DNA from: Tritonibacter horizontis
Lineage (GTDB): Bacteria > Pseudomonadota > Alphaproteobacteria > Rhodobacterales > Rhodobacteraceae
Reading direction: 5' to 3'
Length of the DNA: 64,000 nucleotides
Assembly: GCF_001518015.1 (NCBI RefSeq)
Contig: NZ_LPUY01000049.1
Span: forward strand, 1-64,000
Part shown: positions 1 to 23,057 of the stretch, piece by piece
Position numbering within the stretch: position 1 is the stretch's first letter
Layout: every line of letters starts with the position of its first letter
Position numbers and translations under genes: made by a program
The notes under the pieces: model-generated
The model's database searches: none
What the model saw: the letters and a program-made list of their open reading frames with translations, nothing else
Told to the model about the DNA's origin: nothing

Positions 1-302
1 GCGCGGACCGCATCAATGCCGGCGGCGGCGCCGATCACATCACCGGCGGGCGCGGCGATGATGTGCTGCGGGGCGGCGGCGGCGCGGATGTCTTTGTGTT
101 TTCTCGCGCTCACGGCGAGGACAAGATCCGCGACTTTCGCCCGGAGCTGGACCAGATCGACCTGAGCGCGTTGCGCGTCACCTATGAGGCGCTCGACATT
201 TCACGCGCGGGGCGGCTCACGGTGGTCGATACCGGTGCCGGCGAGATCCGGCTGTCGGGGCTGCACCCGGATCAGATTGATGCCGATGATTTCCTGTTCT
301 GA
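1..302 (+). CDS. RTX (hemolysin-type calcium-binding) protein, C-terminal fragment
   Basis: The reading frame is open from the left edge (codons from base 3) to a TGA at 300-302, so only the last 99 residues are present. They contain glycine/aspartate nonapeptide repeats of the GGxGxDxxx type (GGGADHITGGRGDDVLRGG) that bind calcium in the parallel beta-roll of RTX proteins. A typical post-repeat segment follows (FVFSRAHGEDKIRDFRPELD), and the tail is DADDFLF. That acidic-hydrophobic tail resembles the ends of the other RTX proteins in this window and fits a type I secretion signal. The catalytic or adhesive part lies outside the window, so the function is unknown. Confidence 0.85.
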   Translation, partial: ADRINAGGGADHITGGRGDDVLRGGGGADVFVFSRAHGEDKIRDFRPELDQIDLSALRVTYEALDISRAGRLTVVDTGAGEIRLSGLHPDQIDADDFLF

Positions 303-421
303 GGAACGAGAGGAGACAGGCAGAGGTCGCAGGCTCAAACAGAGCGCCCATGCCGCTGCCCGCCCTCCGCGTGCCCAGATCAGCCCGCCAAGGCCCCGAA
401 TGGCGCGCGCGGGGCTTGGGC
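303..421. other. short intergenic region between convergent genes
   Basis: 119 bases between the RTX fragment (+) and the OPX gene (-). No convincing terminator hairpin or small gene was seen. Confidence 0.4.
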
Positions 422-1717
422 TCAGTTCGTGTCGGGCGTGCGCAGGATGACTTCCACCACATCGCCGGGATAGACCAGATCCCCCAGCGACGCCTGGGTG
501 GTGAGTTCCTTGTCGCCGGTGCCACGGTGCACCAGAAGCTCCAGCGTGGTTGTGTCGCTCTCGCTGCTGGTCAGCAGCAGCAGACGCAGGCTGTCCACCT
601 GGGCGGTCACCTCGGAGAGCTGCTGCGAGAACCGCCGCTTGTCGCTGAGGACATTGGAGCGGAAAACATCGTCCAGCCGGGTAAGTTCCTCTTTCAGCCG
701 CTGCAACTCGGCTTTGGCTTCATAAATGTCAGAACCCACCGTCAGCAGCCGGGTCGAGGCCGCAAGGGCCGAATTGCGCGCCTCACTGACGCGATCAGCG
801 GTGACCAGCCCCCGGTCCCCCATGGTGAGCATGCGCTGCAGCCGCTCCTCTTCGGAGGCGGAGGCCTGTTCATAATTCTGATAGGCCTGCTCAAGGCTGT
901 CGACCCGGTTGGTTGTCAGTTTGATGCGTTCGCGCAGATCATCACGCTGGTATTGCCGCTCGCGCAGGGAAATCTCGATCTCCGAGATTGCGGCCGCGGC
1001 CTCTGTCTCGCCAAGGTAGTCACGCAGCTGGGCGCTGTCCTCGGGGCTGACGGCGGTGTCCGAAATATCAGCCTCCAGCAGGATACGGCTGCGCAGCACC
1101 TGCGCGCGCAGCCATTTCTGGGTCTGCAGCGCCGATTGCAACCGCACGGTGGCATCCGCCGGCGCCTGCACCCCGGCCAGTTCCGACAGTCTGACGCCGC
1201 CGGCCTGGCCCAGCAGGGCGCGCAGGGTCAGGCCCGGCACGTAGTCGATGCTGCCGGGCTGCGGGATGTCGCCGATCACCGTGACCGGGCGGTAGCGGGT
1301 GACCTGCAGGTAGACTTCTTCGCCGGACAGCACCGACACCACCTGTTCACCGCCCTGATAGACCTGCACCTCCAGCCCGGTGGCGGCGATTTCCATCTGC
1401 CGGTTCAATTCAGGCAGGGTCAGCCCGGCGGCTGGCAGCTGACCGACAAAGGGAAACCGGATCTGCCCGGTAATATCAATCGTCGCCTCCCAGGACACAG
1501 CCGACAGGCCGGGCATGGAAAGCTGCAGTCCATCGCCCGGCTGCAGCAGATATTCCCGGATCGGGGAGCTGGACTGGGCCGGGCTGGACTGGGCGGCGGC
1601 GCTGCCGGCTCCGCCGAACACGCCGGACAGGACCAGGGCGCAGAAAAACGCCCAAAGCGGCAACAGCCCTGTCAGCCGACAGGTTTGAGGAAGGCAGCAG
1701 CGGATCTTGAGTGTCAT
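422..1717 (-). CDS. polysaccharide export outer-membrane protein (OPX, ExoF-like)
   Basis: This is a periplasmic/outer-membrane component of a Wzy-type polysaccharide export channel. The ATG at 1717 gives 431 residues starting MTLKIR; the in-frame extension to 1789 adds an unconvincing leader. Residues about 15-45 form a hydrophobic signal sequence ending in an Ala-rich segment. A poly_export domain follows (REYLLQPGDGLQLSMPG, then DITGQIRFPFVGQLPAAGLT), then an SLBB-like segment (PVTVIGDIPQPGSIDYVPG). A long helical, probably coiled-coil region rich in Glu, Arg, Leu and Gln follows, as in rhizobial ExoF, and a short beta-rich C-terminus. It lies on the same strand as, and downstream of, the lasso-type cluster. 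The Wzc-like, Wzy and Wzx partners are at 8.8-22.8 kb. Confidence 0.85.
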   Translation of the reverse strand: MTLKIRCCLPQTCRLTGLLPLWAFFCALVLSGVFGGAGSAAAQSSPAQSSSPIREYLLQPGDGLQLSMPGLSAVSWEATIDITGQIRFPFVGQLPAAGLTLPELNRQMEIAATGLEVQVYQGGEQVVSVLSGEEVYLQVTRYRPVTVIGDIPQPGSIDYVPGLTLRALLGQAGGVRLSELAGVQAPADATVRLQSALQTQKWLRAQVLRSRILLEADISDTAVSPEDSAQLRDYLGETEAAAAISEIEISLRERQYQRDDLRERIKLTTNRVDSLEQAYQNYEQASASEEERLQRMLTMGDRGLVTADRVSEARNSALAASTRLLTVGSDIYEAKAELQRLKEELTRLDDVFRSNVLSDKRRFSQQLSEVTAQVDSLRLLLLTSSESDTTTLELLVHRGTGDKELTTQASLGDLVYPGDVVEVILRTPDTN

Positions 1718-1954
1718 GTCGAATCCAATGAAATCACAAATCAATACGTCGGCACACGCCCCGTTCCTGCCGCCGGGGTCCGCCGTCAAAGCGCGGCAGA
1801 GCGAGCAGGACGCGACATGCGATATCTGTCGCCAGTATAGAGGAAAGATGGTTTTGGAGCAGCATATAATCCGGATCTGCGGGGTGGGATTTTCCGGCCG
1901 ATATGGAAAAACGGGCGTTTGCGGTGAGGGCGCGACCTGTGGCGCGCCCTGGGG
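1718..1954. other. intergenic region upstream of the OPX gene
   Basis: 237 bases between the stop of the kinase gene and the OPX start, both on the minus strand. It presumably holds the OPX promoter, but no clear -35/-10 pair or hairpin is recognisable. Confidence 0.3.
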
Positions 1955-2872
1955 TCAGGAGAGCTCCATCACCTGACGGTCGATCTCTGCCACCAGATCA
2001 CTCAACCGGTCCAGATCCCTGCGGATATGCAAGGTGTAGACCGGCGTTGTCTTCACCACATAACAGCAGCGTTTCATGAATTGCCCCAGATGCGCCGGCC
2101 CGAGGGATGTATTGCCAAAGCGGGCGATGAAGGCGAAATACAGCAGCGCCTCCAGGGCGCTTGTTTCCGGCACCCGTTCGGCCCGGGTTTCGCCGGTCTG
2201 CCGGGGCGACAGCAGAAAGATCGCACCGGCCGGGGTGGGCCGGGCCATTTGGGTCGGATCGATCTGTTTCTGGATCTTGGTGATCGAGGGGTGGATCAGC
2301 TCGGTGCCAGTTTCGGTATCCACCGCCAGCGCCTTGGCCGAATCCGGCCAGAGCTTGACCGCAGGAAAACCGGTCTGCACCTGCGGCGCCCGGGTCAGGT
2401 CGCCGCAATCCATCGCCACCAGATCGTCGGTCAGCAACCGATGCCCGGCCCGCTGCAGGCTGGAGACAGTGGTCGATTTGCCCGCCCCCTTGTCGCCCAG
2501 AACGATCACCGCCTTTCCGTTCACATCAACGCTGCCACCATGCAGGCAGAACAGGCCAAGCCGTTCCAGCGCCACGGAAATCACGATCCCCAGCAGCGGT
2601 TGGCTGACCAGCCGCCAGGACACATCCGGCCGGGGGTCGACAAAGATGCAGCTGGGGTCGGTGATCTCGAAGGCGCCCACCGCCGCCCATTCAAAGAACT
2701 GCCGCTGCGGGGTGATATCAAAAAAGGGATCCTCGGCCTGCCTGCCCCGACGCAGCCCGCTGGCCAGCCGCACCTGGAGGGTCGGGGTCTCATCCGGTGC
2801 CGGCTCCAGAACATCAATGGGAAATTCGGAGGCGATCACCTGCCCGAAGGCGCGATATTGAAAAGAGCTCAC
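1955..2872 (-). CDS. HPr kinase-related protein of the lasso-peptide cluster (putative precursor Ser kinase)
   Basis: HPr-kinase-like P-loop protein. In paeninodin-type lasso clusters such kinases (PadeK, ThcoK) phosphorylate the C-terminal serine of the precursor. The Walker A is GDKGAGKST at residues about 126-134 from the chosen start, and an acidic LLTDDLVAMD follows about 15 residues later. Start choice: a GTG at 2870-2872 overlaps the TGA of the upstream synthetase (GTGA) and has AAGGA eight bases upstream. An ATG at 2896 is possible, and an ORF to 2950 is open, but both intrude further into the synthetase gene. About 305 residues. It is the last gene of the translationally coupled set B1-B2-C-kinase. 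All three precursors in this cluster end in Ser, which fits this role. The substrate is inferred. Confidence 0.75.
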   Translation of the reverse strand: MSSFQYRAFGQVIASEFPIDVLEPAPDETPTLQVRLASGLRRGRQAEDPFFDITPQRQFFEWAAVGAFEITDPSCIFVDPRPDVSWRLVSQPLLGIVISVALERLGLFCLHGGSVDVNGKAVIVLGDKGAGKSTTVSSLQRAGHRLLTDDLVAMDCGDLTRAPQVQTGFPAVKLWPDSAKALAVDTETGTELIHPSITKIQKQIDPTQMARPTPAGAIFLLSPRQTGETRAERVPETSALEALLYFAFIARFGNTSLGPAHLGQFMKRCCYVVKTTPVYTLHIRRDLDRLSDLVAEIDRQVMELS

Positions 2873-4806
2873 CACAGAGTTCCTTCTTGTTGGCATGCGT
2901 TCCAATGGTCCAGTCGCTCCAGCCAGGCTGCCAGATAGATGCTGCGCCACAGGATCTGGATCACGGTGGCGGCGCTATCTTTGGGGCCATCACGGAGCAA
3001 GTCATACCACTTTTCAAAGGTGCCGAGATCCACAATCCCCGCGAGGCTGGTGTTGACACGATGCCAGCGGTCGGCATCTTCCAGATAGGCCAGGATGAAC
3101 TCCGACAGTTCGGAGCTGAAATTGGCCTTGTCCGGTCGCCATTGGACGGTCGGCGGCAACAGCCCCTCCATCGCATCCCGCAGAATGCGGCGGCTCCAGC
3201 CATCACGCAGCTTGCCCTCGGACGGCACGCTGAGACAGAGCTGCACCAGTGCCTTGTCAAAGAAGGGGTAGATTGGCTCGATGCCCTGGGCGGCAGCACT
3301 GCGATGCAGCACCTCAAAGGCCTGGGACATCAGTGGAATGCTCAGATTACCCAGATGCGCCAGACGCTCATCCGGCGCGTCCGGGGGCGCACCATAGGAC
3401 TGTTCCGCCTTGGCCTGGCGGGCCTCCACGTCCTGGTCCTTGCAAAAGGTTTCATCCAGCAGCGTTCTGAAACGGATAGGAAACGGCGGTTTGACTTCAA
3501 TCCTGCGCCCGATCCACCCAACCGCCCGGCGCACCAGACCGTGGCGCGGCAGCGGCGCATAGCGATGGATGTAAAGCAGATAAGGTTCCAGCAGCGGCTG
3601 CCCATAGACGCGGGCGGCGCCCCGCATTTCGCGCCAGAGGCGGAAATAGGCCCCTTGTGCGGCCAGCTCGGCCTGGCGCAGATAGCCGTGCGAGATCACC
3701 TCGTCGCCGCCATGCCCATCCAGCAGGGCGGTCATCCCGCGCGCCTGGGCCTCGGCGTAGATGCGGCGGCTTTTCAGCAGCCCCGGCGCCGGGCAGAGAT
3801 CGAACTGCTCCTCCAGAAGCAGGCGGAGCTGATCCGGTTGCGGTGCGCCCTCCACCCGGATCAGCTCCGGATCGGCCCCGATTTTTTCGTTCACATCCGC
3901 GATAAAGCGGCTTTCGTCATAGCTGTCGGTTTCGCGGTAGACAAAGGACAGGGTGCGCAGGGCCGGAGCTACCGCGCGCGCAGGCGGCGCGGCCAGCACC
4001 GCAATGGTGGAGGAATCGAGCCCGCCGCTGAGCATGCAACCGGTTTCTTGCGGATTGCCCCGACGCACCTGCACCGCGCGCGTCAATTCCTGCCGCAACG
4101 CCGGAACCGCCGCGGCCAATGGCATCACCTCCGGCAGCTCCAACTGCCAATAGCGACGTTGCACCGGTGCGGAGCCGGGCTGCCACTGCAACAGATGCGC
4201 CTTTGGCAGGCGCTCAAGATCGGCAAAGGCGGTGCCCGTCTCGCCATCTGAAAACCCCATCAGATAGGCCGAAACCGTGTCAAGGCGAGGCCGCAGCGGA
4301 TGGCCGTCCAAATGTGCCGCCAGGCGCAGATCACTGGCCAGCACCATCTGTTCCGGGCGGTTGACCAGATAGACGGGCAAAGTGCCGAAATGATCGCGGA
4401 TGACATGCAGCTCCCGGGTGTCGCGGTTCCACAACACAAGCGCAAAGCTGCCGGAGAGCCATTGCAACGCCTCGGGACCATGGGCCGCGCACAGCTGCAA
4501 AACCAGCGCCAGGTCGCTCAATTCTTCTGGCAAGCCCGGGCTCTGTGTCAGTTTTTCCAGCAGGGCGGGGCGATTGTCTGGTCTGATCCGCCCGCAGAGG
4601 GTCAGCGCACCGAGTTGCAGCAGCGCGTCTGATCTGTTGACCCAGAGATGAATGTCATCATCTTCGTAAAGGGCATCATCCCGGTGCTGTGGCGTGATGT
4701 CGGAACGGTTTCCCGGCCGCGTCGGCAATTGTCGAAATCGTTGCAGACGGGTCTCTGTCGCGGCATCACGCGCAGGAGACGCCAGAAGAGCAAATTCAAC
4801 GGTCAT
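2869..4806 (-). CDS. asparagine synthase-related lasso macrolactam synthetase (protein C)
   Basis: 645 residues with an N-terminal class II glutamine-amidotransferase-like domain and a C-terminal ATP-PPi synthetase domain. The PP-loop SGGLDSS lies at residues 260-266, with LLDGHGGDEV further on, typical of asparagine synthetase B. The N-terminus is MTVEF, with no Cys2 nucleophile, so glutaminase activity is unlikely. This is usual in lasso cyclases, which adenylate an Asp/Glu side chain and attach it to the core N-terminus. The start ATG (4804-4806) overlaps the stop of the B2 gene (ATGA), indicating coupling. The neighbours (B1, B2, leader-bearing precursors, exporter) support cyclase rather than asparagine synthase function. 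Confidence 0.85.
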   Translation of the reverse strand: MTVEFALLASPARDAATETRLQRFRQLPTRPGNRSDITPQHRDDALYEDDDIHLWVNRSDALLQLGALTLCGRIRPDNRPALLEKLTQSPGLPEELSDLALVLQLCAAHGPEALQWLSGSFALVLWNRDTRELHVIRDHFGTLPVYLVNRPEQMVLASDLRLAAHLDGHPLRPRLDTVSAYLMGFSDGETGTAFADLERLPKAHLLQWQPGSAPVQRRYWQLELPEVMPLAAAVPALRQELTRAVQVRRGNPQETGCMLSGGLDSSTIAVLAAPPARAVAPALRTLSFVYRETDSYDESRFIADVNEKIGADPELIRVEGAPQPDQLRLLLEEQFDLCPAPGLLKSRRIYAEAQARGMTALLDGHGGDEVISHGYLRQAELAAQGAYFRLWREMRGAARVYGQPLLEPYLLYIHRYAPLPRHGLVRRAVGWIGRRIEVKPPFPIRFRTLLDETFCKDQDVEARQAKAEQSYGAPPDAPDERLAHLGNLSIPLMSQAFEVLHRSAAAQGIEPIYPFFDKALVQLCLSVPSEGKLRDGWSRRILRDAMEGLLPPTVQWRPDKANFSSELSEFILAYLEDADRWHRVNTSLAGIVDLGTFEKWYDLLRDGPKDSAATVIQILWRSIYLAAWLERLDHWNACQQEGTLW

Positions 4807-5237
4807 ACATGCTGCGATGACATACGGGACAATGCAGAGAAGTCACGTCGTGTCAGCTCCTCGCCGCCCAGAATGACAGTCTCTTGCCAGATCAGCCAGG
4901 CATGAAAATCCGTGGCTTCTGCCACATCGGGCGTCGCCGCGCTGGCCGCACCGATAATGAGATCCGTTGGAACGCCGAACCAGCTCAGAATTGCCTGACC
5001 TGTCAGCGCCTGTGTCATGCAGGTTGCTTTGGGCACGTATCTTGCGGCACGTGACACCGTACGCGCCACCACATGGGCGCGGGCAGCGTTGTCACGGCTG
5101 CCATCTGCCGGGGTCACCAACCACCTGCGGATCTGGGTGAATTTCGCCAGATAAAGCGCAATGCGCACAAAAATCACAACCCCAAGGCAGAGCAGGAACA
5201 ACAGCCCTCGCCGGATCCAGGCCTTAAATCTGTGCAT
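4803..5237 (-). CDS. lasso peptide biosynthesis B2 protein (transglutaminase-like leader peptidase)
   Basis: 144 residues. A hydrophobic segment (about residues 10-30, GLLFLLCLGVVIFVRIALYL) suggests membrane association. The B2 cysteine-protease core follows: Cys73 in PKATCMTQAL and His112 in DFHAWLIW, with a C-terminal GGEE segment. B2 proteins cleave the leader delivered by B1/RRE. The gene overlaps the B1 gene by 14 bases at its start and the cyclase gene by 4 at its end, so B1, B2 and C are read as one unit. Family assignment is strong because motifs, size and neighbours all agree. Confidence 0.85.
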   Translation of the reverse strand: MHRFKAWIRRGLLFLLCLGVVIFVRIALYLAKFTQIRRWLVTPADGSRDNAARAHVVARTVSRAARYVPKATCMTQALTGQAILSWFGVPTDLIIGAASAATPDVAEATDFHAWLIWQETVILGGEELTRRDFSALSRMSSQHV

Positions 5238-5547
5238 CGCCCGGAGGCTCTGTCATCGTCACAAGCCCGGCGGAGACAAGGTCATCCACCAAGGCCTCGA
5301 CATCAGCGCGGCACGCGTCTTCTGACACATCAAAGGTGGCTGTAACGGTTGAAACAAGATGGCTGAGGGGGACCGGAGCCTGCATCGCGTTCCACACTTC
5401 AGCGCCAGTGGCGTTCAATGTGTAATAGAGGCTCGTTTCGAGATCCAACAGCGCCCAGTGGCCGCCAATATCGGAAGCTACAACATCCGGGCGTGCCTGA
5501 TAGGCAGGTCCGGCTAAAGATACGTCAACATTCTGGGAATGTGTCAT
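5224..5547 (-). CDS. PqqD family RiPP recognition protein (lasso B1)
   Basis: 107 residues of the PqqD/RRE fold. The segment GHWALLDLETSLYYTLNATGAEVWNAM is the strand-strand-helix pattern of these domains, and an acidic helix (DVEALVDDLVSAGLV) closes the fold. Such proteins bind the leader Tyr-x-x-Pro-x-Leu motif and present the precursor to B2. All three candidate precursors just upstream carry that motif. The gene starts 27 bases after the stop of the first precursor and overlaps B2. Confidence 0.85.
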   Translation of the reverse strand: MTHSQNVDVSLAGPAYQARPDVVASDIGGHWALLDLETSLYYTLNATGAEVWNAMQAPVPLSHLVSTVTATFDVSEDACRADVEALVDDLVSAGLVTMTEPPGDAQI

Positions 5548-5574
5548 GATAATTCAAACTACAGGACGAAACAC

Positions 5575-5763
5575 TTATGAAAAGGCATCAAAGGCATCGC
5601 GGTCATGACCTTTGCCTTTGGCTTTGTCATGGCCCCAGCCTTTGCCCTTTGAATGGCCCCAGCCGTGCTTGCCCTTCCCCTTGCCATGGCCGAACTGCGT
5701 TACATCTTCAACGCGCCCGACACATTTAAGTTGCGGCGATACATAGGGATTTTGGTTCTTCAT
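5575..5763 (-). CDS. lasso-family leader precursor peptide A1, Gly/His/Lys-rich core
   Basis: 62 residues from the ATG at 5763 (an in-frame GTG at 5775 is less likely). The leader shows Tyr7-x-x-Pro10-x-Leu12-x3-Gly16-x5-Thr22, the lasso leader pattern. With the usual cleavage two residues after that Thr, the core would be residues 24-62. It begins FGHGKGKGKHGWGHSKGKG and ends DRDAFDAFS. The first acidic residue of the core is at position 23, so a 7-9-residue macrolactam ring cannot form in the standard way, and the first residue is Phe rather than Gly. The C-terminal Phe-Ser is shared with A2 and A3. It could be a differently modified RiPP, possibly metal-binding through its histidines; this is inference. 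Confidence 0.75.
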   Translation of the reverse strand: MKNQNPYVSPQLKCVGRVEDVTQFGHGKGKGKHGWGHSKGKGWGHDKAKGKGHDRDAFDAFS

Positions 5764-5835
5764 TGAAATTCTCACACTATTTAAACACGTACACAGAAAA
5801 AACGCATACGAATTCGTCTCAAATCAAATCGAAAT

Positions 5836-5862
5836 GGGAAGGCAGAAACGCTCCCGCCTCCC
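5836..5862 (-). terminator. weak hairpin between precursors A3 and A1 (possible attenuator)
   Basis: GGGAAGGC at 5836-5843 can pair, with one bulge, with GCCTCCC at 5856-5862. On the minus strand it lies just after the A3 stop and is followed by a T-rich stretch. It may set the ratio of precursor to enzyme transcripts. Confidence 0.3.
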
Positions 5863-5871
5863 CAAGATATC

Positions 5872-6036
5872 TCAGGAGAATGAAGACGAGTCTTCAGTAC
5901 AAGTGTAGCTCCCACGCGGGGTGCCGGATGGGAAGCTCGCGTCGAGGTATGTGTCAGGGCAGCTTGCGCCCTGCGTTACCTGTTCAGCGGAGCCTTTGAA
6001 ATCCAGGCGGGGTGCAATGTAATTTTGCTTTTCCAT
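5872..6036 (-). CDS. lasso-family precursor peptide A3 (54 residues)
   Basis: Found by reading the minus strand between the other two precursors: ATG at 6034-6036, TGA at 5872-5874, 54 codons plus stop. AAAGG lies about nine bases upstream of the start. The leader has Tyr6-x-x-Pro9-x-Leu11-x3-Gly15-x5-Thr21, the same spacing as A1 and A2. The predicted core starts at Gly23 (GASCPDTYLDASFPSGTP) and ends SSSFS. It shares the block Asp-Ala-x-Phe-Pro-x-Gly-Thr-Pro-x-Gly with A2. From Gly23 the acidic residues fall at core positions 6 and 10, not 7-9; cleavage one residue later (Ala24) would make Asp32 position 9. Cys26 and Cys46 could form a disulfide. Leader and tail agreement make it a convincing gene. 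Confidence 0.8.
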   Translation of the reverse strand: MEKQNYIAPRLDFKGSAEQVTQGASCPDTYLDASFPSGTPRGSYTCTEDSSSFS

Positions 6037-6110
6037 CGGATAAGCCTTTCTCGTTACATTTTGTTACGTTGTGTTGCTCTGCAGTAAAGTCCAGAAAACA
6101 CCACTGTCGT

Positions 6111-6263
6111 TCAGGAGAACGTCAGGTCTCCGAACGGGGTGCCAACGGGGAAAGCGGCATCGCCATTTTCGCCCTTGCTGGTGCCTGCGGTCAGAGCTTC
6201 AACACGCCCCTTCTTGCACAGGCTAGGAGCAACATACGTGATCTTTGTTGTGTTGTCAGTCAT
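6111..6263 (-). CDS. lasso peptide precursor A2 (predicted Gly1-Asp9 lasso)
   Basis: 50 residues from the ATG at 6261-6263, preceded by GGAGG with nine bases of spacing; the upstream extension to 6293 is unlikely. The leader has Tyr10-x-x-Pro13-x-Leu15-x3-Gly19-x5-Thr25. Cleavage after Ala26 places Thr at -2 and gives a 24-residue core starting GTSKGENGDAAF and ending GDLTFS. Gly1 with Asp9 is the classic nine-residue macrolactam ring. The 15-residue tail contains Phe12, Phe18 and Phe23 that could act as steric plugs. The C-terminal Ser24 is the expected site for the neighbouring HPr-kinase-like protein. First of the three precursor genes downstream of the exporter gene. Confidence 0.85.
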   Translation of the reverse strand: MTDNTTKITYVAPSLCKKGRVEALTAGTSKGENGDAAFPVGTPFGDLTFS

Positions 6264-6533
6264 TGGTAAACATACCTCCGAAAAAATAAGCAACCTACGT
6301 GCTCTAAGTCATTTGTGGAGCACTGGGTCCTTAAATGTTTAACACATCTTTAACCTTCATCCAAAGCAAACTCTCGGCAGGATTCAATTTTTTGCATGCC
6401 AACGGGCATATTTGCGGCAACCTGACCCGCGCTCCCGTCGTTTCAGGGCCGTTTTCTTGCGGGAGTTGTGACCCACGGACCGTATTCCCCCGCGCGCCCC
6501 CTGCAGAGCCCCAAATGGCCTCAAAGAGATTCG
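6264..6533. other. intergenic region upstream of the precursor genes
   Basis: 270 bases between the exporter stop and the A2 start, less GC-rich than its surroundings in the half nearest A2. It probably carries the promoter for the precursors. No further leader-bearing ORF was found on the minus strand; the longest ATG frame examined is 19 codons. Confidence 0.4.
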
Positions 6534-8327
6534 CTAGTCTGGCATCTGGGCCTTGAACATCGTGTAATATCGCCCCTTCGCGGCAACCAGGTCTTCGTGT
6601 CGCCCCTCCTCGACGATTCGCCCCTTGTCCAGCACATAGGTGTAATCCGCGGAGCGGATCGTCGAGAGACGGTGGCTGATGACCAGAGCGGATCGATCGC
6701 CAAGCTTCTCCCGGAACCTGTCGAACAGGGCCGATTCCGCGCTGGGGTCCGTGGCACTGGTGGGTTCATCCAAAACCAGGAAACGCGATTGCGGGAAAAA
6801 GGCCCGCGCCAGGGCCACCCGCTGCCATTGCCCGCCGCTCAACTCCTGACCATCATCGAACATCCGCACCAGCATGGTGTCATAGCCCTTCGGCAGGGCT
6901 TCGATGATCTCATGGGCGCCGGCCAGCCGGGCGGCCTCGGTCATGCGGGGACCATCTGCGGGCTGCATCAGATCGCCAAGGTGAATGTTCTCCCGCGCGG
7001 TAAAGGCATAATGGCCGAAATCCTGGAACACGACCCCGAACTGGCGCCGATACGCGACCGGATCAAAGTTGCGGATATCCTCCCCATCGAGGGTGATCTG
7101 CCCGTCCTGAGCATCGTAAAGTCGGCACATGACCTTGATCAGAGACGATTTTCCGGAGCCATTGCCGCCCACCAGCGCGATGAATTTTCCCGGTGGCAGG
7201 TGCAGCGACACCCCCTTGAGCGCCGGGGTCGCGCTGCGGGGGTATGAGAACTGGATATTGGTCAGCCGCAGGCCATCTTCCAGCTTGTCGGGCAGGGGGG
7301 TGACCTTGGCCGGCACCTTGATGGTGGGCTCGATCGCCAGGAACTGGAACAGCTGGCCCAGGAACAGGCGGTCGTCATAGAGCCGCGACAGGCTCTGTAC
7401 CGCCGAGCGCCCGGCCGCCTCGGCACGCTGAAAGGCCACGACCAGCAGCACCAGCGCGCTCAGCGCCGTGGCATTGTCGGGCGCCGATGTGGCGACCAGA
7501 TAGGCCGAGCCGATGAACACCAGACCGCCGATCAGCGCAATCATCGTCTCGCGCGAGGCGCGCACCCATTCGATCCGGATCTGCGCTTCACGGATGGTGT
7601 CGCGCAGGCCCCGGAACTGACGCCGCAGATTGTCCCCGATATGGAACAGGCGCACTTCCTTGGCATATTGTTCCGAGGTGACCAGCCAGTCCAGATAGGC
7701 GGCCTTGCGCTCCAGCTGGATGCGCTGGGTGATCCAGCGAAACCGCATGCCGGTGGTCTGCAGCTGCACGATCAGGGTTAGAGCCAGGGCCAGGGCAATC
7801 CCCGGCAGGATGCGCCAGTCCAGCCCGACGATCACCACACCGATGCCCAGGAGCAGGATCAGGCTGCGCAGACAGGTCAGCGCGTTGGAGATCACCTCTG
7901 CCGGGCGCTGCGCCCCAACTTCGCGGGCGCGTTCGAGCGCATCATAATACAGTGCACTGTCAAAAAAGCTGAGATCCGCCGCCACCGTGCGCCGCTGGAT
8001 CTCCTCGTTCACCACATCGGCCACCAGCAGGCTCTGCTTGGCCCGCAGGTAGTTGCCGAAAGAGGCCAGAAGCTTGCCAAAGATCAGCGCCGCCAACGTC
8101 AGACCAAGCGCAAACAGGGTCCGGCTGTTGAACGGATCCGCCTCGCTGCTGCCCTGTTGCGCGACAGACCCGACCAGGACCTTGATGGCGAACAGCATCG
8201 CAATGCCGAGGATGGCCTCCAGAACCGCCACGATAAAGACCAGAAAGGTCAGCCGCCCCTCCGCATAGCGCAGAAGCGACAAAACATCGTGCCAGAAGGA
8301 GATATAGCTGCTAATCTTCTTTTTCAT
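6534..8327 (-). CDS. ABC transporter (TMD-NBD fusion), predicted RiPP exporter
   Basis: 597-residue half-transporter. The transmembrane domain (segments around residues 25-50, 70-90, 155-190 and 262-300) precedes a nucleotide-binding domain. Walker A is GGNGSGKSS at 387-395, the signature is LSGGQWQRVALARA, and Walker B is FLVLDEPTSATD. There is no N-terminal C39 peptidase domain, as expected where B2 removes the leader. It would act as an inner-membrane homodimer exporting the mature peptides and giving self-immunity. It lies upstream of the precursors on the same strand. The substrate is inferred from context. Confidence 0.8.
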   Translation of the reverse strand: MKKKISSYISFWHDVLSLLRYAEGRLTFLVFIVAVLEAILGIAMLFAIKVLVGSVAQQGSSEADPFNSRTLFALGLTLAALIFGKLLASFGNYLRAKQSLLVADVVNEEIQRRTVAADLSFFDSALYYDALERAREVGAQRPAEVISNALTCLRSLILLLGIGVVIVGLDWRILPGIALALALTLIVQLQTTGMRFRWITQRIQLERKAAYLDWLVTSEQYAKEVRLFHIGDNLRRQFRGLRDTIREAQIRIEWVRASRETMIALIGGLVFIGSAYLVATSAPDNATALSALVLLVVAFQRAEAAGRSAVQSLSRLYDDRLFLGQLFQFLAIEPTIKVPAKVTPLPDKLEDGLRLTNIQFSYPRSATPALKGVSLHLPPGKFIALVGGNGSGKSSLIKVMCRLYDAQDGQITLDGEDIRNFDPVAYRRQFGVVFQDFGHYAFTARENIHLGDLMQPADGPRMTEAARLAGAHEIIEALPKGYDTMLVRMFDDGQELSGGQWQRVALARAFFPQSRFLVLDEPTSATDPSAESALFDRFREKLGDRSALVISHRLSTIRSADYTYVLDKGRIVEEGRHEDLVAAKGRYYTMFKAQMPD

Positions 8328-8848
8328 ATTGACCTGAATACCTTGGGCCCATTGCCCGGCCTCTTTGCCACTGTTGTTTGCGGCGCCCCCGCCATGGCGG
8401 TTGCCTCATGGATGTCCGAGAGACAGCGTCGAATTGCATGGTGATGTTACGCAAGAGTGACACAGCTGCAGCCGCGGAATGCGTGTCTGCTGGAGTTTTT
8501 CGTCCCAACGACCCATCGAGCCTCCCCGCGCGCCGCAAAAATGATCTGAACACTGACGATATTGACAAACTGGCGACATTGACAAAATTGAATGAAAACG
8601 CGCCAACCCGTTCTGAAGCCGGGCAAAGAGCGTCATGATCGGTTCTCAAAACTGGTCAGACATTGTCGCATTCCTGCCCTCCAGGCAAGTCCAGGGGGCA
8701 GGGCCTGCGGAAATAATGACCGGCAGCGAACCTCACGGCGCCCGAAGGGCCGCCGATCACAGGCAGAGCACGATTTTCGCGTGCGAATGACGGCCGCCTC
8801 ATGCATAGTCGCGGCGACTGGCAAATCGCCTAGCCTAAAGTACATATT
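8328..8848. other. intergenic region between divergent exporter and polymerase genes
   Basis: 521 bases that should hold divergent promoters. ORFs here on either strand have no recognisable features. Nothing specific was identified. Confidence 0.4.
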
Positions 8849-10096
8849 ATGATTGAAACCTTTTACACCCGCGCTCGCGATGTCGTTGGCTGGCATGCCC
8901 TTGCATGGCGTTTCTACCTGCTGGCCCTCGCGACAAGCTTTCTGGTGATGATCGAGCCTGCACTGACGGACCTGCTGTTCCTCTTGGGGGTGCCGATCCT
9001 CGGCCTGGCCGGGCTCAAACCCGTTCGGCTCGTCGGGGGCATCGAAACGCTTGGGATCATTCTGTTCGTTTGGTTTTCGTTCCTGTCCCTGACGATGGTT
9101 GAGCAGTATTTTTTGGTTTCAGTGCGCGCCGTCATCATCGAAATCTATATGTTGCTGATTTTCCTGGTGACCGCTTACTGGGCCCGCCACTATGGGGATC
9201 ACGCGTTTCGCGCCGTGGTCCTGATGTTGATCTTTGGCGGGCTTTGCACCTCGCTCATTGGCATCCTCGCCTGGCTGGACGTGCTGCCAAACAGCGAAAT
9301 CTTCTTTCGGGACGAATATCGCTCCAGGATCCGGTCCACGTTCAAGGACCCTAATGTTCTGGGCCCCTATCTCATCATGCCCCTGCTCGGTGCCCTTTGG
9401 GCCCTGATCGAAGACGCCCGCAAGCGTCTGTTCTTTCTGCCCATCGCAGGCATTCTGATGGTCGGCCTTTTGCTGACCTTCTCGCGCGGGGCCTGGATCC
9501 ATGGGATCGTCACGATCTTCATCTTCTTCTTGGCCCTGCTGAACTATCGCAAGACCGCCTATCAGGTGTTTCTGGCCGGCTGTCTGGTGCTGGGGTGCGC
9601 CACCTTTGTGCTGTTCATCTTTGCAGATGACATCTTCGGCGCCTTGTCGGGCAGCTACTTCAGCAAAAGGGTATCGCTTCAGTCATACGACAGCGAGCGC
9701 TTCAATCATATTTTTGAATCTTTATTCCACATCCTCGACCACCCTTTTGGCGTTGGGCCAAACCAGGTCGTATTTAAATTCGGAATAGAACCTCACAATA
9801 CGTTTGTCGTATTCGCCGTGAATAATGGAATTCTAGCCTGCTTCGGGTTCGTCATTATTTACTTTGCAGCCGCCTATAGGTGCCTTGTGAAAACATTCGA
9901 AGGCAAAGATGGATGGCTGAAATACGCCTTTATTCTGGCCATTATGGCAGGCTTGTTTATCCTGATGAACGTCGTGGGGGGGATTCACTGGCGACATCTT
10001 TTTGTTACAATCGGACTGGCCTACGGGAATTACACCCAGAACACTTTTCTTGACCTCAAGACCTCAGAGTCGCCCCCGTCAAGGCCCTCCCTTTAA
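8849..10096 (+). CDS. O-antigen ligase/polymerase family membrane protein (Wzy-like)
   Basis: 415 residues with about ten hydrophobic segments. A conserved patch (STFKDPNVLGPYLIMPLL) precedes a TFSRGAWI motif, and a periplasmic loop with HNTFV near the C-terminal part follows. This is the pattern of Wzy_C/O-antigen ligase family proteins. It would polymerise lipid-linked repeat units at the periplasmic face of the inner membrane. The flippase at 21.5 kb, co-polymerase at 16.5-18.6 kb, sugar transferase at 23.1 kb and OPX at 0.4 kb complete a Wzy-dependent set. Ligase and polymerase cannot be told apart from sequence alone. Confidence 0.8.
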   Translation: MIETFYTRARDVVGWHALAWRFYLLALATSFLVMIEPALTDLLFLLGVPILGLAGLKPVRLVGGIETLGIILFVWFSFLSLTMVEQYFLVSVRAVIIEIYMLLIFLVTAYWARHYGDHAFRAVVLMLIFGGLCTSLIGILAWLDVLPNSEIFFRDEYRSRIRSTFKDPNVLGPYLIMPLLGALWALIEDARKRLFFLPIAGILMVGLLLTFSRGAWIHGIVTIFIFFLALLNYRKTAYQVFLAGCLVLGCATFVLFIFADDIFGALSGSYFSKRVSLQSYDSERFNHIFESLFHILDHPFGVGPNQVVFKFGIEPHNTFVVFAVNNGILACFGFVIIYFAAAYRCLVKTFEGKDGWLKYAFILAIMAGLFILMNVVGGIHWRHLFVTIGLAYGNYTQNTFLDLKTSESPPSRPSL

Positions 10097-13996: not shown

Positions 13997-15160
13997 ATGG
14001 AGCGCATGTTGAAAATTGCTCTGATCCTGGAGACGTCGGGTGGCGGGTCCGGGCGCCATGTACTGGATCTGGCTCAGGGCCTTTCGGAACGGGGCCACGC
14101 CGTCACTGTCATCTGGTCCCCCCTGCGCGCTGACGACGGATTTCGGGACCGGCTGTTCGAGATGAACCGGGTCAGGAATGTGACCGTGGATCTTCATCGC
14201 AGCGTCGGGTTGCATGATCTGAAAGGGTTCAGGGACCTGGCAAAGGTTCTGAAAAACAGCGGCCCCTTTGACATTCTGCACGCGCATAGCTCAAAGGCCG
14301 GAGCCTTGACGCGCCTCCTGCCCAAACGGGGCCCGGTGCGGATTTACACCCCCCATGCCCTGCGGACGATGGATCCGGCAATCTCTCGCCTTGGTTACAC
14401 GATCTATGGGACGATCGAACGGATGCTCGCCCTGCGCGGGGATCCCGTGATTGCGGTCAGCCAGAAAGAGCGCGCGCATGCCGTCCAGCTTGGCCTGTCC
14501 CCGCAACAAGTCTCCTGCATTCCCAATGGCGCCAGCCCCGTAGAGGGCGCGAACCGGGACCGGGCCCGCGCCGAGATGGGACTGGCGCCAACCGATTTTG
14601 CCGTCGGATTTGTCGGGCGGATGGTGGACCAGAAAAACCCGCAGCTCTTTGTGGAGGCCCTCCGCGCGGCGACCCATCACGCCCCAAACATCAAGGGGGT
14701 GATGATGGGAGATGGCCCGCTGATGGAGGAGGTGCGCACCCTGGCAAAAGATCTGCCAATCGAACTTCTGGGCTGGTGCGATGCCCCATCGCTGATCTAC
14801 GGGCTGGACACGCTGTGCATCACCAGCCGCTATGAGGCTTTGGCCTACAGCTTTCTCGAAGCTCTGCAGGCGCATGTCCCCCTGGTGACGACCCCTGTCG
14901 GGGGCGCCGAAGAGACGGTTCAGGACGGTAAGACCGGCTATGTTCTGCCTCAGGACCCCACCCCCGACGCGCTTGCAGCCCCCCTCGTCAGCCTGGCGAC
15001 GGACCCCGATCGCCACCGGGCATTCCAGGAGGCGACGGCGGTTCTGGCACGGGAGCGCTCGATCGAGAAAATGGTCGATGCCACAATTGCCCTATATCAA
15101 ACCTCATTGACGGATTTTGCCGTCCTTCCTTCTCATAAAGCAGGCCAGGCAAGTGGCTAG
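13997..15160 (+). CDS. glycosyltransferase family 4
   Basis: 387 residues with two Rossmann domains (GT-B). The N-terminal GSGRHVLDLAQGLSERGHAV nucleates the acceptor-side domain. The C-terminal half has VGFVGRMVDQKNPQLFVEAL and SRYEALAYSFLEAL followed by VTTPVGGAEE, matching the GT4 sugar-nucleotide binding EX7E region (Glu in YEALAYSFLEAL). It would add a hexose or deoxyhexose to the lipid-linked repeat unit in the cytoplasm. ATG at 13997 with AGAGG just upstream; an ATG four codons later is possible. It belongs with the Wzy-type genes around it. Donor and acceptor are unknown. Confidence 0.85.
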   Translation: MERMLKIALILETSGGGSGRHVLDLAQGLSERGHAVTVIWSPLRADDGFRDRLFEMNRVRNVTVDLHRSVGLHDLKGFRDLAKVLKNSGPFDILHAHSSKAGALTRLLPKRGPVRIYTPHALRTMDPAISRLGYTIYGTIERMLALRGDPVIAVSQKERAHAVQLGLSPQQVSCIPNGASPVEGANRDRARAEMGLAPTDFAVGFVGRMVDQKNPQLFVEALRAATHHAPNIKGVMMGDGPLMEEVRTLAKDLPIELLGWCDAPSLIYGLDTLCITSRYEALAYSFLEALQAHVPLVTTPVGGAEETVQDGKTGYVLPQDPTPDALAAPLVSLATDPDRHRAFQEATAVLARERSIEKMVDATIALYQTSLTDFAVLPSHKAGQASG

Positions 15161-15238: not shown

Positions 15239-16447
15239 ATGGTAGATTTCACCGCGCAGACAGCAGAAGTCAGGTTACAGATCCTTCTGGCCAAGGCCTA
15301 TCTCGCAGAGCCTGATATCGCATTGGCGCAGCGGCTGATGGCAGAAATCGGCGACTGGGAGGCGTTTGTGCGCAGCGCCCACCGGAATTTCAGCCTGCCC
15401 CTTCTGCAGCGACATATCGTTCAGCTCGATCCGACGGGGATCTCACCAGAGATCCGGACCATGATGCAGCAGACCGCCATGCAGACCGCGCTGCGCAATA
15501 TGAAGCTGGTGGCCAGCCAGCGGAAATTCCTGAACACCTGCCTGAAGCCCGCCGGGCTGCCCGCGATTTTTTTCAAGGGCATCAATCTGGCCGCACAATA
15601 TTACCCTGACCTGGGTCTGCGCCCCAGTCGTGACATTGATGTGCTGGTGCCAAGCGGCAGTCTGCACCGGGTGGTCGAGAAGGCCATGTCAGAAGGTTAC
15701 ACTCTGGTCGCCCCGGACACACAGATCAGAGCAATGACCAGTTCGCAGGATGTGGACGCGGTGCTGCGACTGTGCGCAGATGTATCGCTCCTGACCCCGG
15801 AAGGAACCGTTCTGGACCTGCAGCAGAAGCTGGACAAGCATTCGGGTATCTTTGCCCGCTATGACATCTTTGCCCGGGCCGCGACCTTTTCCCTGGGTGG
15901 CGAAGACTTTCAGACGATGCCGCCTGCCTTCCTGTTCAACTACCTGTGTCATCACCATTCCCGGCACACCTGGTCCCGGCTGCACTGGCTGAGCGATCTC
16001 GACGCAATCTGCAGCTCACCGCACTTCGATCCTGAAGACGCCCTGGCCCTAGCGGATCAGTTGGGACAACGCGGCACGGTCGAGGCAGGGCTGGAACTGC
16101 GCGCGCTGATGTCAGGTGACACCCCCTGGGACAACGGGCCCGCGATGGCCCATGGCAAGGCGTTTCTCGATCTGGCAATCCGCAACCTGCCTGGGGATCT
16201 GCGACTGGAAAAGAAGATCAGCCTGACGCTCAAGGGCGGGGAGTTCATGTTCGACTGGCAGGCAAAGCCGGAGCTGATTGCAAAGGCCCGCCGCAACTGG
16301 TGGCGCAGCATCTTCAAGCCGACCCTCAAGCAATATGTTCAGATGCCGCTGCCAAAGAACCGGCAATGGATCTACTACATCCCCCGCTTCTTCCAGCTGC
16401 TTCACGAAACGGCCACCCGCCTCACCATAACCGGCAGGGCGGGATGA
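15239..16447 (+). CDS. nucleotidyltransferase family protein (NTP_transf_5-like)
   Basis: 402 residues. A central motif FFKG (about 111-114) is followed by GLRPSRDIDVLV, with Asp132 and Asp134 as the likely metal-binding pair of a polymerase-beta-type nucleotidyltransferase fold. The family is poorly characterised and is frequently found beside exopolysaccharide and lasso-like genes. The C-terminal half is alpha-helical with a His-rich stretch (LFNYLCHHHSRHTW). It ends 13 bases before the convergent co-polymerase gene. The substrate is unknown; it could belong functionally either to the polysaccharide set or to the peptide cluster. Confidence 0.7.
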   Translation: MVDFTAQTAEVRLQILLAKAYLAEPDIALAQRLMAEIGDWEAFVRSAHRNFSLPLLQRHIVQLDPTGISPEIRTMMQQTAMQTALRNMKLVASQRKFLNTCLKPAGLPAIFFKGINLAAQYYPDLGLRPSRDIDVLVPSGSLHRVVEKAMSEGYTLVAPDTQIRAMTSSQDVDAVLRLCADVSLLTPEGTVLDLQQKLDKHSGIFARYDIFARAATFSLGGEDFQTMPPAFLFNYLCHHHSRHTWSRLHWLSDLDAICSSPHFDPEDALALADQLGQRGTVEAGLELRALMSGDTPWDNGPAMAHGKAFLDLAIRNLPGDLRLEKKISLTLKGGEFMFDWQAKPELIAKARRNWWRSIFKPTLKQYVQMPLPKNRQWIYYIPRFFQLLHETATRLTITGRAG

Positions 16448-16460
16448 CACCGTTCTCTTG

Positions 16461-18566
16461 TTACAGGACGCCCAGTTTCTGCTTGTAGTGGGCCTGCCGG
16501 TTCTGCGGATCGCCATCCGCCCCGTAAAGCGCCACCACATCCTGGCTGCCCAGACCTTTTTGGAACAATTCGCCCAGGCTGACCTCGATGCTATCGGAGC
16601 TTGAAACGCTACAGCCTGTCACAAAGAGGGTCTTGTCCACATAGCGCGCGACCTGCTGCGCATCTGGCGCCGCCAGGACCGGGGCCGTGTCGATCAGCAC
16701 AATGTCGTAGCGTTGCAGCGCCGTCTCGAGCAGATCTTTAAAGCTGTCCAATTCGAGCAAATCGGCCGGGGTACGATGCTCCTGCGTGTTCAGCAGCAGA
16801 TCGACACCAAGCTGTTTCTGGCGAATGACCGCATTGTCCAGATCTTCGCCCCCCAGCAGCACGCTTTCCAGTCCGGTCTGCACCTGGGAGCCCTGCAGCA
16901 GTCGCATCACCCCAACGCCACGCTCGTCGGCGATGATGATCAGGACTTTCTTGTCCACATAAGACAGGCTCCGCGCCAGCGCCAAGGTCACAAGGCTTTT
17001 GCCAACCCCAACCAGATCGGAGGCCACATGCACGGCCATCGACTTGTCTGCCGGAGCCCCGCTGAGCAGGGTGGTCCGCAGCCTGCGGATCCCCTTCGAG
17101 AACTCGGTCGAGCGGGTTGTCAGCAACAGGCTGAGATTGAGCTTGCGATTGAACGGCAGACCTTTCATCGGCACCTTCGGGACGGAGACCACCTTGGCCT
17201 GCGGCAACAGCACCTTGAGATCGGAAGGCGTGCGGATGGTCTGATCGTTGGCCTGCTTGATCAGGATCCAGGTCACGGCCGAGATCATCCCCAGGAAGCC
17301 CAGGATCAGCATGGTGCGCAGGCGCCCGCGACTGTTGCCCCGCTGCGGAGAATGCGCCGAGAACACGATGCGGCCTCCGGCGGTTTCGACATCCGCTTGC
17401 ACAGAGAGCTCATTGAGGCGGCGCTGCGAGAACTCATAGATCTCGTTACTGGCCTCGACTTCGCGTTCCAGCTGATTGAACTGCAACAGGCGTTCACTAT
17501 GCGCCGTCAGGCGCTCCTCGAGGGCGGAAATGGAGGAGCTCAGCTTTGACGACTGCTCCTGCGCCCGCTCCCGCCGGGTCTGGATCTCTGCCAGCATGTT
17601 GTCCGTATCAGGTCCAACGGCATCGCGCAGCACCTGCAGCCCGGGCACCTGTGCGATGCGGGCAGCCTGGGCACTGGCCTGCAGGCCCTCCAGATCTTTC
17701 ACTTCTGCCTCAAGACGCAGAGCGGTCAGCAATTCCTGGGCCAGCGCCTCCCGGCGGTCTTTCAGTCGGGTCACCTCTGTCGCCATCGAACGCAAGGTGG
17801 TGGGATCGACCACTTCCGCTTCGTTTTTCATCGCCTGCAGGGCCTGTTCCTTTTCCCGGAAATCCTGCCGCAGGTTCACCAGGCGGTCCCCCAGTTGCGC
17901 CACCACCCGATCAACGGAATCCAGACGTGACCGAAGCGCATCGTTCAGAAAGGCCTCTGCCACCGCATTGGCCAGCAAGGCGGATTTTTCCGGATCAAAC
18001 GTGGTGGCCTGAACGTGAATGAGGGAGGTCTGCGGCGGCACCAGGAAACGCACGCTCTCCTGCACCCGGGCGACGACTTCCTGACTGACGTAATCGGCCC
18101 CCAGGTCCACAGGCTCGGCTTCTTCCACAGGTCCGAAAACCCGTGTCCGCAGCCCCTCGATCACCAGCGCAAGCCGCGAAGGCTCCGTTTCTTCCCGGGG
18201 CAGGAAGGGGTTGAACTCCGGGTCTTCCTCAAGAGACAGCTGCGCAACGACATCCTCGATAACGGGGCGGGCGCCAAAGACCTCGACCGCAGTGGCCGGA
18301 TTTGCATAAGCGCTGTTGTCTCGCGAGAGCGCAGAACTCATCGAGGCAGAGTTGTCTTCAAGGATCAGAAGGCTTTCTGCCGTGTAGGTGCGGTCCCGTG
18401 ATCCGGTGAGGAAAAACCCCAAAAACATGAAACATAATACGGTCAGACCGATACGCCATTTGCTCCCCCAGAGGATCCGCCAAAGCGAGAGCAAGCTGAA
18501 AGATCCGTTTGTCGAATGGTTTGGGGTGCCCGATGAAACTATGGCAGCCGGGTCGAAATATCTCAT
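16461..18566 (-). CDS. Wzc/ExoP-like polysaccharide co-polymerase with degenerate BY-kinase domain
   Basis: 701 residues from the ATG at 18566 (the ORF is open to 18614). Transmembrane segment 1 is at about 36-54 (WRIGLTVLCFMFLGFFL), then a Wzz domain, a long periplasmic coiled coil (about 230-400) and a second TM near 430-450 (LRTMLILGFLGMISAVTWILI). A cytoplasmic P-loop kinase-like domain follows. Walker A is GVGKS at about 520-524 and Walker B is VLIDTAP (Asp about 626). The Walker A' DxDxR motif reads IADER, so its first Asp is missing. Only two tyrosines lie in the last 25 residues instead of a Tyr cluster. It would control chain length and bridge to the OPX channel; autophosphorylation may be lost. 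Confidence 0.8.
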   Translation of the reverse strand: MRYFDPAAIVSSGTPNHSTNGSFSLLSLWRILWGSKWRIGLTVLCFMFLGFFLTGSRDRTYTAESLLILEDNSASMSSALSRDNSAYANPATAVEVFGARPVIEDVVAQLSLEEDPEFNPFLPREETEPSRLALVIEGLRTRVFGPVEEAEPVDLGADYVSQEVVARVQESVRFLVPPQTSLIHVQATTFDPEKSALLANAVAEAFLNDALRSRLDSVDRVVAQLGDRLVNLRQDFREKEQALQAMKNEAEVVDPTTLRSMATEVTRLKDRREALAQELLTALRLEAEVKDLEGLQASAQAARIAQVPGLQVLRDAVGPDTDNMLAEIQTRRERAQEQSSKLSSSISALEERLTAHSERLLQFNQLEREVEASNEIYEFSQRRLNELSVQADVETAGGRIVFSAHSPQRGNSRGRLRTMLILGFLGMISAVTWILIKQANDQTIRTPSDLKVLLPQAKVVSVPKVPMKGLPFNRKLNLSLLLTTRSTEFSKGIRRLRTTLLSGAPADKSMAVHVASDLVGVGKSLVTLALARSLSYVDKKVLIIIADERGVGVMRLLQGSQVQTGLESVLLGGEDLDNAVIRQKQLGVDLLLNTQEHRTPADLLELDSFKDLLETALQRYDIVLIDTAPVLAAPDAQQVARYVDKTLFVTGCSVSSSDSIEVSLGELFQKGLGSQDVVALYGADGDPQNRQAHYKQKLGVL

Positions 18567-22828: not shown

Positions 22829-23057
22829 TTTGAGTGGGGATAAAGGGTAGTCGTTTCCACGACTGACTTTTTTCGCCCAGCCAAATCCCAGCGGAGCGAC
22901 TATTTTCTCAGCAGAATCGACCAGTTTCTTTGGTTAACGTCATATAAACCTGTTCAGAATCACGTAAGAATAGCTATGCTTATGGTTAGAATTTGAGCTA
23001 AATCGGACATAGTCGTTCGGGTATCTTCTGTCATTGTTTGCGTGGGAAGGCTGGTTA

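Follow-up and report, generated by a model that had tools for sequence, protein, structure and literature searches.

A kinase-bearing lasso peptide cluster of Tritonibacter horizontis with two probable kinds of substrate, set in an exopolysaccharide region

Introduction

The first 64,000 nucleotides of contig NZ_LPUY01000049.1 (81.1 kb in total) of Tritonibacter horizontis (assembly GCF_001518015.1), a stretch referred to throughout as the window, carry at 1955-8327 on the minus strand a row of genes of the kind that makes lasso peptides, together with a gene for an HprK-like kinase. Within this row lie three small precursor genes that have a leader pattern and a C-terminus in common, and that encode very different cores. 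The question raised by this locus is what one set of enzymes would do with three such cores, when only one of them has an acidic residue where the ring of a lasso peptide is normally closed. Judging from sequence, the answer that seems to us best is that this is a kinase-bearing lasso operon with two kinds of substrate, leading respectively to a phosphorylated lasso peptide and to a linear phosphopeptide, inside an exopolysaccharide locus; we would put the probability of this reading at roughly 0.6.

A first-pass annotation of the same DNA had described a lasso-type cluster of ribosomally synthesised and post-translationally modified peptides (RiPPs), with three precursors and a kinase on a plasmid, and these points have stood up; it was silent on the acid-less nature of precursor 1, on Asp10 of precursor 2 and on the polysaccharide setting, with all of which much of the present account is concerned. 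As of 2022 the functions of lasso-peptide phosphorylation were, in the words of the relevant part of one review, still to be unravelled (PMC9266682).

The lasso genes and the kinase

Read in the order of transcription, the cluster (minus strand throughout) begins with an ABC exporter (6534-8327; ABC_tran, 3.8e-31; 88.6% identical to a protein of the sister species G1147), continues with three small open reading frames (ORFs) for the precursors, and ends with B1, B2, the cyclase and the kinase. Family assignments were made by Pfam and NCBIfam profile searches of the window proteins, and the families are those first named: B1 (5224-5547) is a PqqD-like leader-binding protein (Pfam PqqD, 1e-17); B2 (4803-5237) is a leader peptidase with Cys73 and His112 (Transglut_core3, 6.8e-15; lasso_biosyn_B2, 6.2e-15, over the cut-off); the macrolactam cyclase C (2869-4806) has SGGLDSS and no Cys2 (Asn_synthase, 2.4e-43; lasso_lactam_cya, 2.6e-94); and the kinase (1955-2950) has His-Lys-Asp-Asp and GDKGAGKST (Hpr_kinase_C, 2.4e-07). 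A leader-binding B1, a B2 peptidase with its Cys and His, and an Asn-synthase-like cyclase, by which a lasso cluster is recognised, are thereby all present, and the residues and motifs read off at first sight were all found again.

Cys73 and His112 are invariant in all nine B2 proteins aligned, and SGGLD in all four cyclases, while all 13 of the kinase sequences aligned share H137, K154/K158 and D175-D176. His-Lys-Asp-Asp is given as the catalytic motif of lasso-tailoring HprK-like kinases in the section of a review that deals with them (PMC9266682); its placement on H137, K154/K158 and D175-D176 is our own assignment, made from the alignment, and agrees with the initial view of this protein as a kinase for C-terminal Ser. 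The association of an HprK-related kinase with a PqqD-family chaperone is also a feature of the HPr-rel-A cassette (TIGR04352, TIGR04353), but the window is not a member: window protein P0001 scores 35.8 bits (4.5e-09) against TIGR04352, far below its cut-off of 200.

Three precursors with one leader pattern

All three precursors fit Y-x2-P-x-L-x3-G-x5-T exactly, as had been claimed, with the Thr at -2, and all three end in Phe-Ser, so that each has the C-terminal Ser required as acceptor. A looser form of the leader pattern, run over both strands of the whole 64 kb, returns the three precursors and one other match (35840-36028), which lies inside a longer ORF. The NCBIfam leader scores of precursors 1 and 3 (13.0 and 13.4 bits) are below the cut-off of 19, and for the leader of precursor 2 the search of the window gave no NCBIfam match.

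It is in the cores that the differences lie. Precursor 3 (6111-6263) is canonical; it starts at 6263, with an ATG after CGGAGG, rather than at the longer ORF start, and its leader ...YVAPSLCKKGRVEALTA is followed by the core GTSKGENGDAAFPVGTPFGDLTFS, with Gly1, a C-terminal Ser, and Asp9 within the span (Asp or Glu at 7-9) expected of a ring acid. Precursor 2 (5872-6036) has the core GASCPDTYLDASFPSGTPRGSYTCTEDSSSFS, with Cys4, one Cys in the tail and, counting from the Thr at -2, Asp6 and Asp10 and no Asp or Glu at 7-9; it fits the ring-acid rule only if the B2 cut falls one residue later. The core of precursor 1 (5575-5763), FGHGKGKGKHGWGHSKGKGWGHDKAKGKGHDRDAFDAFS, is rich in Gly, His, Trp and Lys, has its first acid at position 23 and none at 7-9, and ends in -FS. 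An origin of this core by frameshift was considered and ruled out, because the reading frame of the leader runs on into the C-terminal DAFS, which the sister species also keeps. The earlier suggestion that one enzyme set handles all three cores can for these reasons be kept in part: leader removal and phosphorylation of all three are likely, because leaders and C-terminal Phe-Ser are common to them, but no lasso is expected from precursor 1, because none of its core positions 7-9 is acidic, and Asp10 of precursor 2 also falls outside that span.

How far these cores depart from the usual was judged against leader-bearing short ORFs taken by a fixed pattern from alphaproteobacterial loci, amounting to 63 distinct peptides, of which 19 are variants from Mesorhizobium; the 32 loci from outside Alphaproteobacteria, and L090-L131, were excluded. 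Asp is found at core position 9, counted from the Thr at -2, in 55 of these; the core has 24 residues in 53, and the end is T-F-S in 52. Asp at position 10 occurs in two, namely window precursor 2 and its sister orthologue, and just six have no acid before position 16, these being window precursor 1, its sister (whose core the fixed pattern places two residues late) and four peptides from the genus of genome G051. C-terminal Ser is present in 62 of the 63, the exception being an L006 ORF encoded on the opposite strand.

Some minor observations concern other precursor-like genes. Locus L006, a Sulfitobacter indolifex plasmid, has at 5480-5617 (minus strand) an unannotated second precursor near transposases, on the opposite strand and ending in TTP. 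In Mesorhizobium, L159 and L160 (1676-1786, minus strand) and L161 (1719-1838, minus strand) encode very short peptides that begin MKKTYEKP or MKKVYERP, with lasso-like leaders and almost no core, present as a tandem pair in L159; further leader-like short ORFs in this genus turned out to belong to a different peptide type.

Conservation in the sister species

Any such precursor was found in three of 18 genomes of the window's genus, in which both G1147 and Epibacterium ulvae were placed by the genus search, where G1151 matches the E. ulvae genome in the coordinates of its two precursors. The sister species G1147 keeps all three precursors and the gene order. Identity between the two is lowest for the cyclase (62%), with 68% for the polysaccharide-export (OPX-type) protein that follows the kinase and 75-89% for B1, B2, kinase and ABC exporter; the cyclase is the least conserved of the cluster proteins, as if it were tracking changing cores. 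In each of the nine genes compared, and likewise in every precursor core, the nonsynonymous rate (dN) is below the synonymous rate (dS); in precursors 1 and 2 dS is close to saturation or beyond it. For precursor 3 the values are 0.09 and 0.75; for the core of precursor 1 they are 0.55, the highest dN of the stretches compared, and 2.6, which is near saturation. The leader of precursor 1 is conserved, and its core is fast-changing yet remains rich in Gly, His, Trp and Lys, free of early acids and terminated by DAFS. In sister precursor 2 both Cys and Asp10 are kept and Asp6 is absent, which leaves Asp10 as the only conserved candidate for a ring-region acid.

A plainer account would have this be an ordinary phospho-lasso cluster in which precursor 3 alone matters, precursors 1 and 2 being decaying or neutral duplicates with drifting cores. 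The high dN of the precursor 1 core is what such drift would produce, and most alphaproteobacterial relatives do have a single canonical precursor; set against this, the two odd precursors are intact in the sister with dN below dS, the features conserved there include Asp10, the pair of Cys, the FS terminus and the richness in Gly, His, Trp and Lys, and acid-less peptides with a constant DPCDYTFS end recur in four of five genomes of another genus. On balance we think decay unlikely, and prefer an operon with two kinds of substrate.

Epibacterium ulvae provides a separate observation: an orphan canonical precursor (L144, 8659-8808, plus strand) lies about 38 kb from the lasso cluster and 8-9 kb from two sugar-transferase genes, and no lasso enzymes were matched in the 20 kb stretch around it.

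Acid-less peptides in a second genus

The other genus is that of G051, a genome in which an acid-less peptide was found using a profile that contained window precursor 1 and none of the five acid-less peptides from outside the window, and then in four of the five genomes of the genus. These four carry an acid-less peptide and a canonical precursor, with B1 and B2 homologues beside the latter in every case, while the fifth genome has neither. Leaders of the acid-less peptides are near-identical to the canonical one, with cores such as GRGHGGFGGGWGWGGGRPHRPH before the constant end. In the family sample, acid-less peptides occur in two of nine genomes with a canonical precursor and in none of 385 without (Fisher 4.6e-4, post hoc); none was found in the 347 genomes of a sphingomonad family, of which eight have canonical precursors. 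From these comparisons, precursor 1 looks like a member of a conserved class of companion peptides, unable to form a normal lasso. If so, the products of lasso machinery come in two kinds, one of them without a ring, and precursors of the ringless kind would be thrown out by genome-mining rules that insist on a ring acid.

It must be asked, of course, whether precursor 1 and its kin are substrates at all. They could instead be mimics of the leader, serving as decoys or regulators by occupying B1 or the kinase, or else peptides with a borrowed leader that bind metals or polyanions. A core that cannot be cyclised by the 7-9 rule would suit such a role, as would the position of the genes in G051's genus, which are orphans outside the lasso locus (in L157 and L185 no homologue of the window's polysaccharide proteins was found near them); but both the Thr-X cleavage context and the C-terminal Phe-Ser are kept, and in window and sister alike the gene lies inside the operon, just before B1. 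Mimicry strikes us as rather doubtful, if somewhat less so than decay, and in what follows precursor 1 is treated as a substrate.

Proposed pathway

From the genes, residues, conserved positions and neighbourhood we infer the following chemical steps, export and function. B1 would bind the leader common to the three precursors and B2 would cut after Thr-X, and since leader and Thr-X site are common, both enzymes should deal with the three in the same way. A C-terminal Ser, and little else, is what described kinases of this type require, according to the portion of one account that deals with them (PMC8498205), and the relevant passage of a second has the paeninodin and pseudomycoidin kinases (PadeK, PsmK) modify the C-terminal Ser while the precursor is still linear (PMC9266682); the kinase would for this reason be expected to phosphorylate the C-terminal Ser of all three.

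In precursor 3 the cyclase would join Gly1 to Asp9, and formation of a phosphorylated lasso peptide is here very probable. Precursor 2 might form a ten-residue ring to Asp10, or a nine-residue ring if B2 cuts one residue later, and its two conserved Cys could join ring and tail; we regard cyclisation at Asp10 as evenly balanced. With a Cys in its ring region and a second in its tail it resembles the disulfide-bearing lasso peptides (classes I, III and IV), from which it differs in having Asp at 10 and a disulfide that is putative. It is a ready-made test case for the closing of a ten-residue ring by a cyclase of this group. A literature search by title returned nothing relevant on ten-residue lasso rings or on glycine-rich lasso cores. 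Precursor 1, being without an acceptor for ring closure, would be released as a phosphopeptide that is linear, cationic and rich in Gly, His and Trp, an outcome that we favour by a little. All products would be exported by the ABC transporter, and would act in the surrounding exopolysaccharide setting.

Relatives and described systems

A related cyclase is present in four of 295 genomes of the family sample including the window's own, giving three relatives, and also on two plasmids and in 79 loci (one genome per species). The 79 were drawn from the best 80 of 497 matches, and counts on them refer to the matches listed. Among these, tblastn with the window proteins matched the kinase in 75, the ABC exporter in 72, B1 in 73 and B2 in 59, with all five genes in 57; cyclase, kinase, B1 and B2 occur together in 47 of the 47 alphaproteobacterial loci listed. 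Relatives are found in Mesorhizobium (35 of the 79), Sphingomonas, Caulobacter and roseobacters. Cyclase identity to the window is at most 40% among the loci listed from the best 80 of 497 matches, only the sister being nearer. Neither a near-DNA search with window 1-9000 nor tblastn with precursor 1 gave a match in the plasmid collection.

The statement that no described lasso system has this combination does not hold. Kinase-type lasso clusters have been described in Proteobacteria, and those of Sphingobium yanoikuyae (SyanK) have an HprK-like kinase whose target is the C-terminal Ser of a lasso precursor, although an acid-less or Asp10 precursor goes unmentioned in the parts of the review accounts available (PMC9266682, PMC8498205). 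In an alphaproteobacterium, caulosegnins I-III likewise come from three precursors that share a single enzyme set, according to the section concerned (PMC13352647). They differ in having 8- and 9-residue rings. To our knowledge, the caulosegnin cluster also has no kinase. The paeninodin and pseudomycoidin systems belong to Firmicutes and have another gene order. The gene combination, then, is not new; the novelty lies in the companions that lack a ring acid, in the precursor with Asp10 and in the link to polysaccharide genes.

Several cyanobacterial clusters (L054, L072, L079, L081 and L083) have two or three precursors, and many of these lack a C-terminal Ser and carry an Asp-Phe motif beyond the ring region, although a kinase-like gene was matched nearby.

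The polysaccharide setting

The lasso genes are embedded in a large exopolysaccharide region (window 1-30315). Directly downstream of the kinase, on the same strand and after a gap of 165 bp, is the OPX-type gene (422-1789, minus strand; Poly_export, 4.4e-11), which has the same place in G1147. Divergent from the cluster is an O-antigen ligase or Wzy-like gene (8849-10096, plus strand; Wzy_C, 2.1e-09), and beyond it come a glycosyltransferase of family 4 (13997-15160, plus strand), an NTP_transf_5 nucleotidyltransferase (15239-16447, plus strand; PF14907, 3.9e-38), a Wzz-type chain-length protein with an AAA domain (16461-18614, minus strand; AAA_31, 1e-08; Wzz, 1.9e-05, just below the cut-off), a Wzx-type flippase (21458-22783, plus strand; Polysacc_synt, 1.9e-10) and an initiating sugar transferase (23034-23735, plus strand; Bac_transf, 1.9e-60). 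The far end of the contig (62000-81100, L087) has RmlD and GDP_Man_Dehyd genes (dTDP-sugar type) and a second polysaccharide-export gene.

The NTP_transf_5 gene is a possible sugar-phosphate tailoring gene, its family PF14907 being presumably also that of PsmN from the pseudomycoidin system. It sits outside the lasso gene row on the opposite strand, 7 kb from the exporter; in L044 a gene of this family follows the kinase, and in L158 a stretch that matches it is found 5' of the precursor. By analogy with PsmN, which adds hexoses to the phosphate of pseudomycoidin in the relevant passage of the review (PMC9266682), the enzyme could add a sugar to the phosphate.

Whether this neighbourhood is more than accident was judged against a chance level defined as the fraction of each genome within a set distance of any Bac_transf or Poly_export match. 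A first set comprised 15 of 19 genomes or records, after exclusion of two plasmid records (both with a sugar transferase within 5 kb) and of G307 and G308, which lie outside Alphaproteobacteria and whose loci have no Bac_transf or Poly_export match. In this set 13 of 15 lasso loci are within 20 kb of polysaccharide genes, with 0.69 expected (P 2e-16). A second set of nine further genomes (six sphingomonads taken blind, all six within 20 kb, and G051, G091 and G292, inspected before the count; G132 and G147 were excluded, their lasso contigs being 6-7 kb) gave eight of nine, with 0.47 expected (P 4e-10). These P values presume independence, which is broken by related genomes (the first set has two Mesorhizobium, and both sets have several sphingomonads). 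Twenty control stretches had no polysaccharide match, but as they were chosen after the match positions were known they carry no weight as evidence, and the coverage-based expectation is used in their place. Kinase-free lasso clusters, sought for contrast through the isopeptidase family, came to one of 385 genomes over the cut-off, too few to serve as a control for the link. A literature search found no paper on a link between lasso peptides and polysaccharide, most subscription journals being outside its coverage.

An alternative explanation is hitch-hiking, both gene sets gathering on the same plasmids or variable islands with no joint function. The window, L006 and L007 are plasmid-borne, and of the eight sphingomonad genomes measured, five have the two gene sets 16-18 kb apart and one (G306) 20.5 kb apart rather than adjacent, as would suit this explanation. 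It is harder to reconcile with Mesorhizobium, where 35 of 35 listed loci, L019 and L034 on chromosomes among them, have both a sugar transferase and an OPX-type gene next to the lasso cluster (the order in L008, after the exporter, being sugar transferase, export protein, acyltransferase, Wzy), with the OPX-type gene that stands inside or ends the lasso gene row in window, sister and L009 (in the last of these, between kinase and ABC exporter), or with a second, separate lasso cluster in Marivita that is likewise flanked by polysaccharide genes. This Marivita cluster (L145, G296:C7:28500-48400) is distinct, has a kinase, and is flanked by sugar-transferase and polysaccharide-export genes. Hitch-hiking nevertheless deserves serious consideration, at slightly less than even odds, and a working link between lasso genes and polysaccharide is equally tentative.

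A number of further observations weigh against the reading of a two-substrate lasso operon in an exopolysaccharide locus. The cyclase scores 317 bits against lasso_lactam_cya, below the curated cut-off of 525, and the kinase 30.9 bits against Hpr_kinase_C, below the Pfam cut-off of 33.3; for the third (Asp) triad residue of B2, no Asp is invariant across the nine aligned proteins of the clade. The acid-less genes in G051's genus stand as orphans at a distance from the lasso cluster, 65 kb in G051 itself. At 10 kb the counts near polysaccharide genes fall to 10 of 15 (0.37 expected) and five of nine (0.26 expected), and misses at 20 kb are G297 (116 kb from the nearest polysaccharide gene), G306 (20.5 kb) and, in the second set, G292, with no such gene on its 27.5 kb contig. 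The link could, finally, reflect shared islands or plasmids, related genomes not being independent events.

So strong an association does nonetheless lead to a direct hypothesis on the role of lasso phosphorylation. Alphaproteobacterial phospho-lasso peptides might be components of the exopolysaccharide matrix, their phospho-Ser joined to sugar by the NTP_transf_5 or polysaccharide enzymes, or might exit with the polymer through the OPX-type protein, while some lineages would add ringless phosphopeptides, rich in Gly, His, Trp and basic residues, that bind the anionic polymer. This proposal is speculative and, as it stands, unlikely; if true, it would make the locus a dual-output RiPP system, and would be the first role assigned to lasso phosphorylation known to us.

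Plasmid setting

The plasmid location first proposed is supported by a replication initiator RPA (plasmid replication initiator A; 30396-31412, minus strand; PF10134, 8.9e-100) and a ParA-type protein (31894-33303), and the contig resembles what we take to be the 'biofilm plasmids' of roseobacters. Two RTX or M10-type metallopeptidase-like proteins (23876-25750, minus strand; 28792-30315, plus strand) adjoin the polysaccharide genes.

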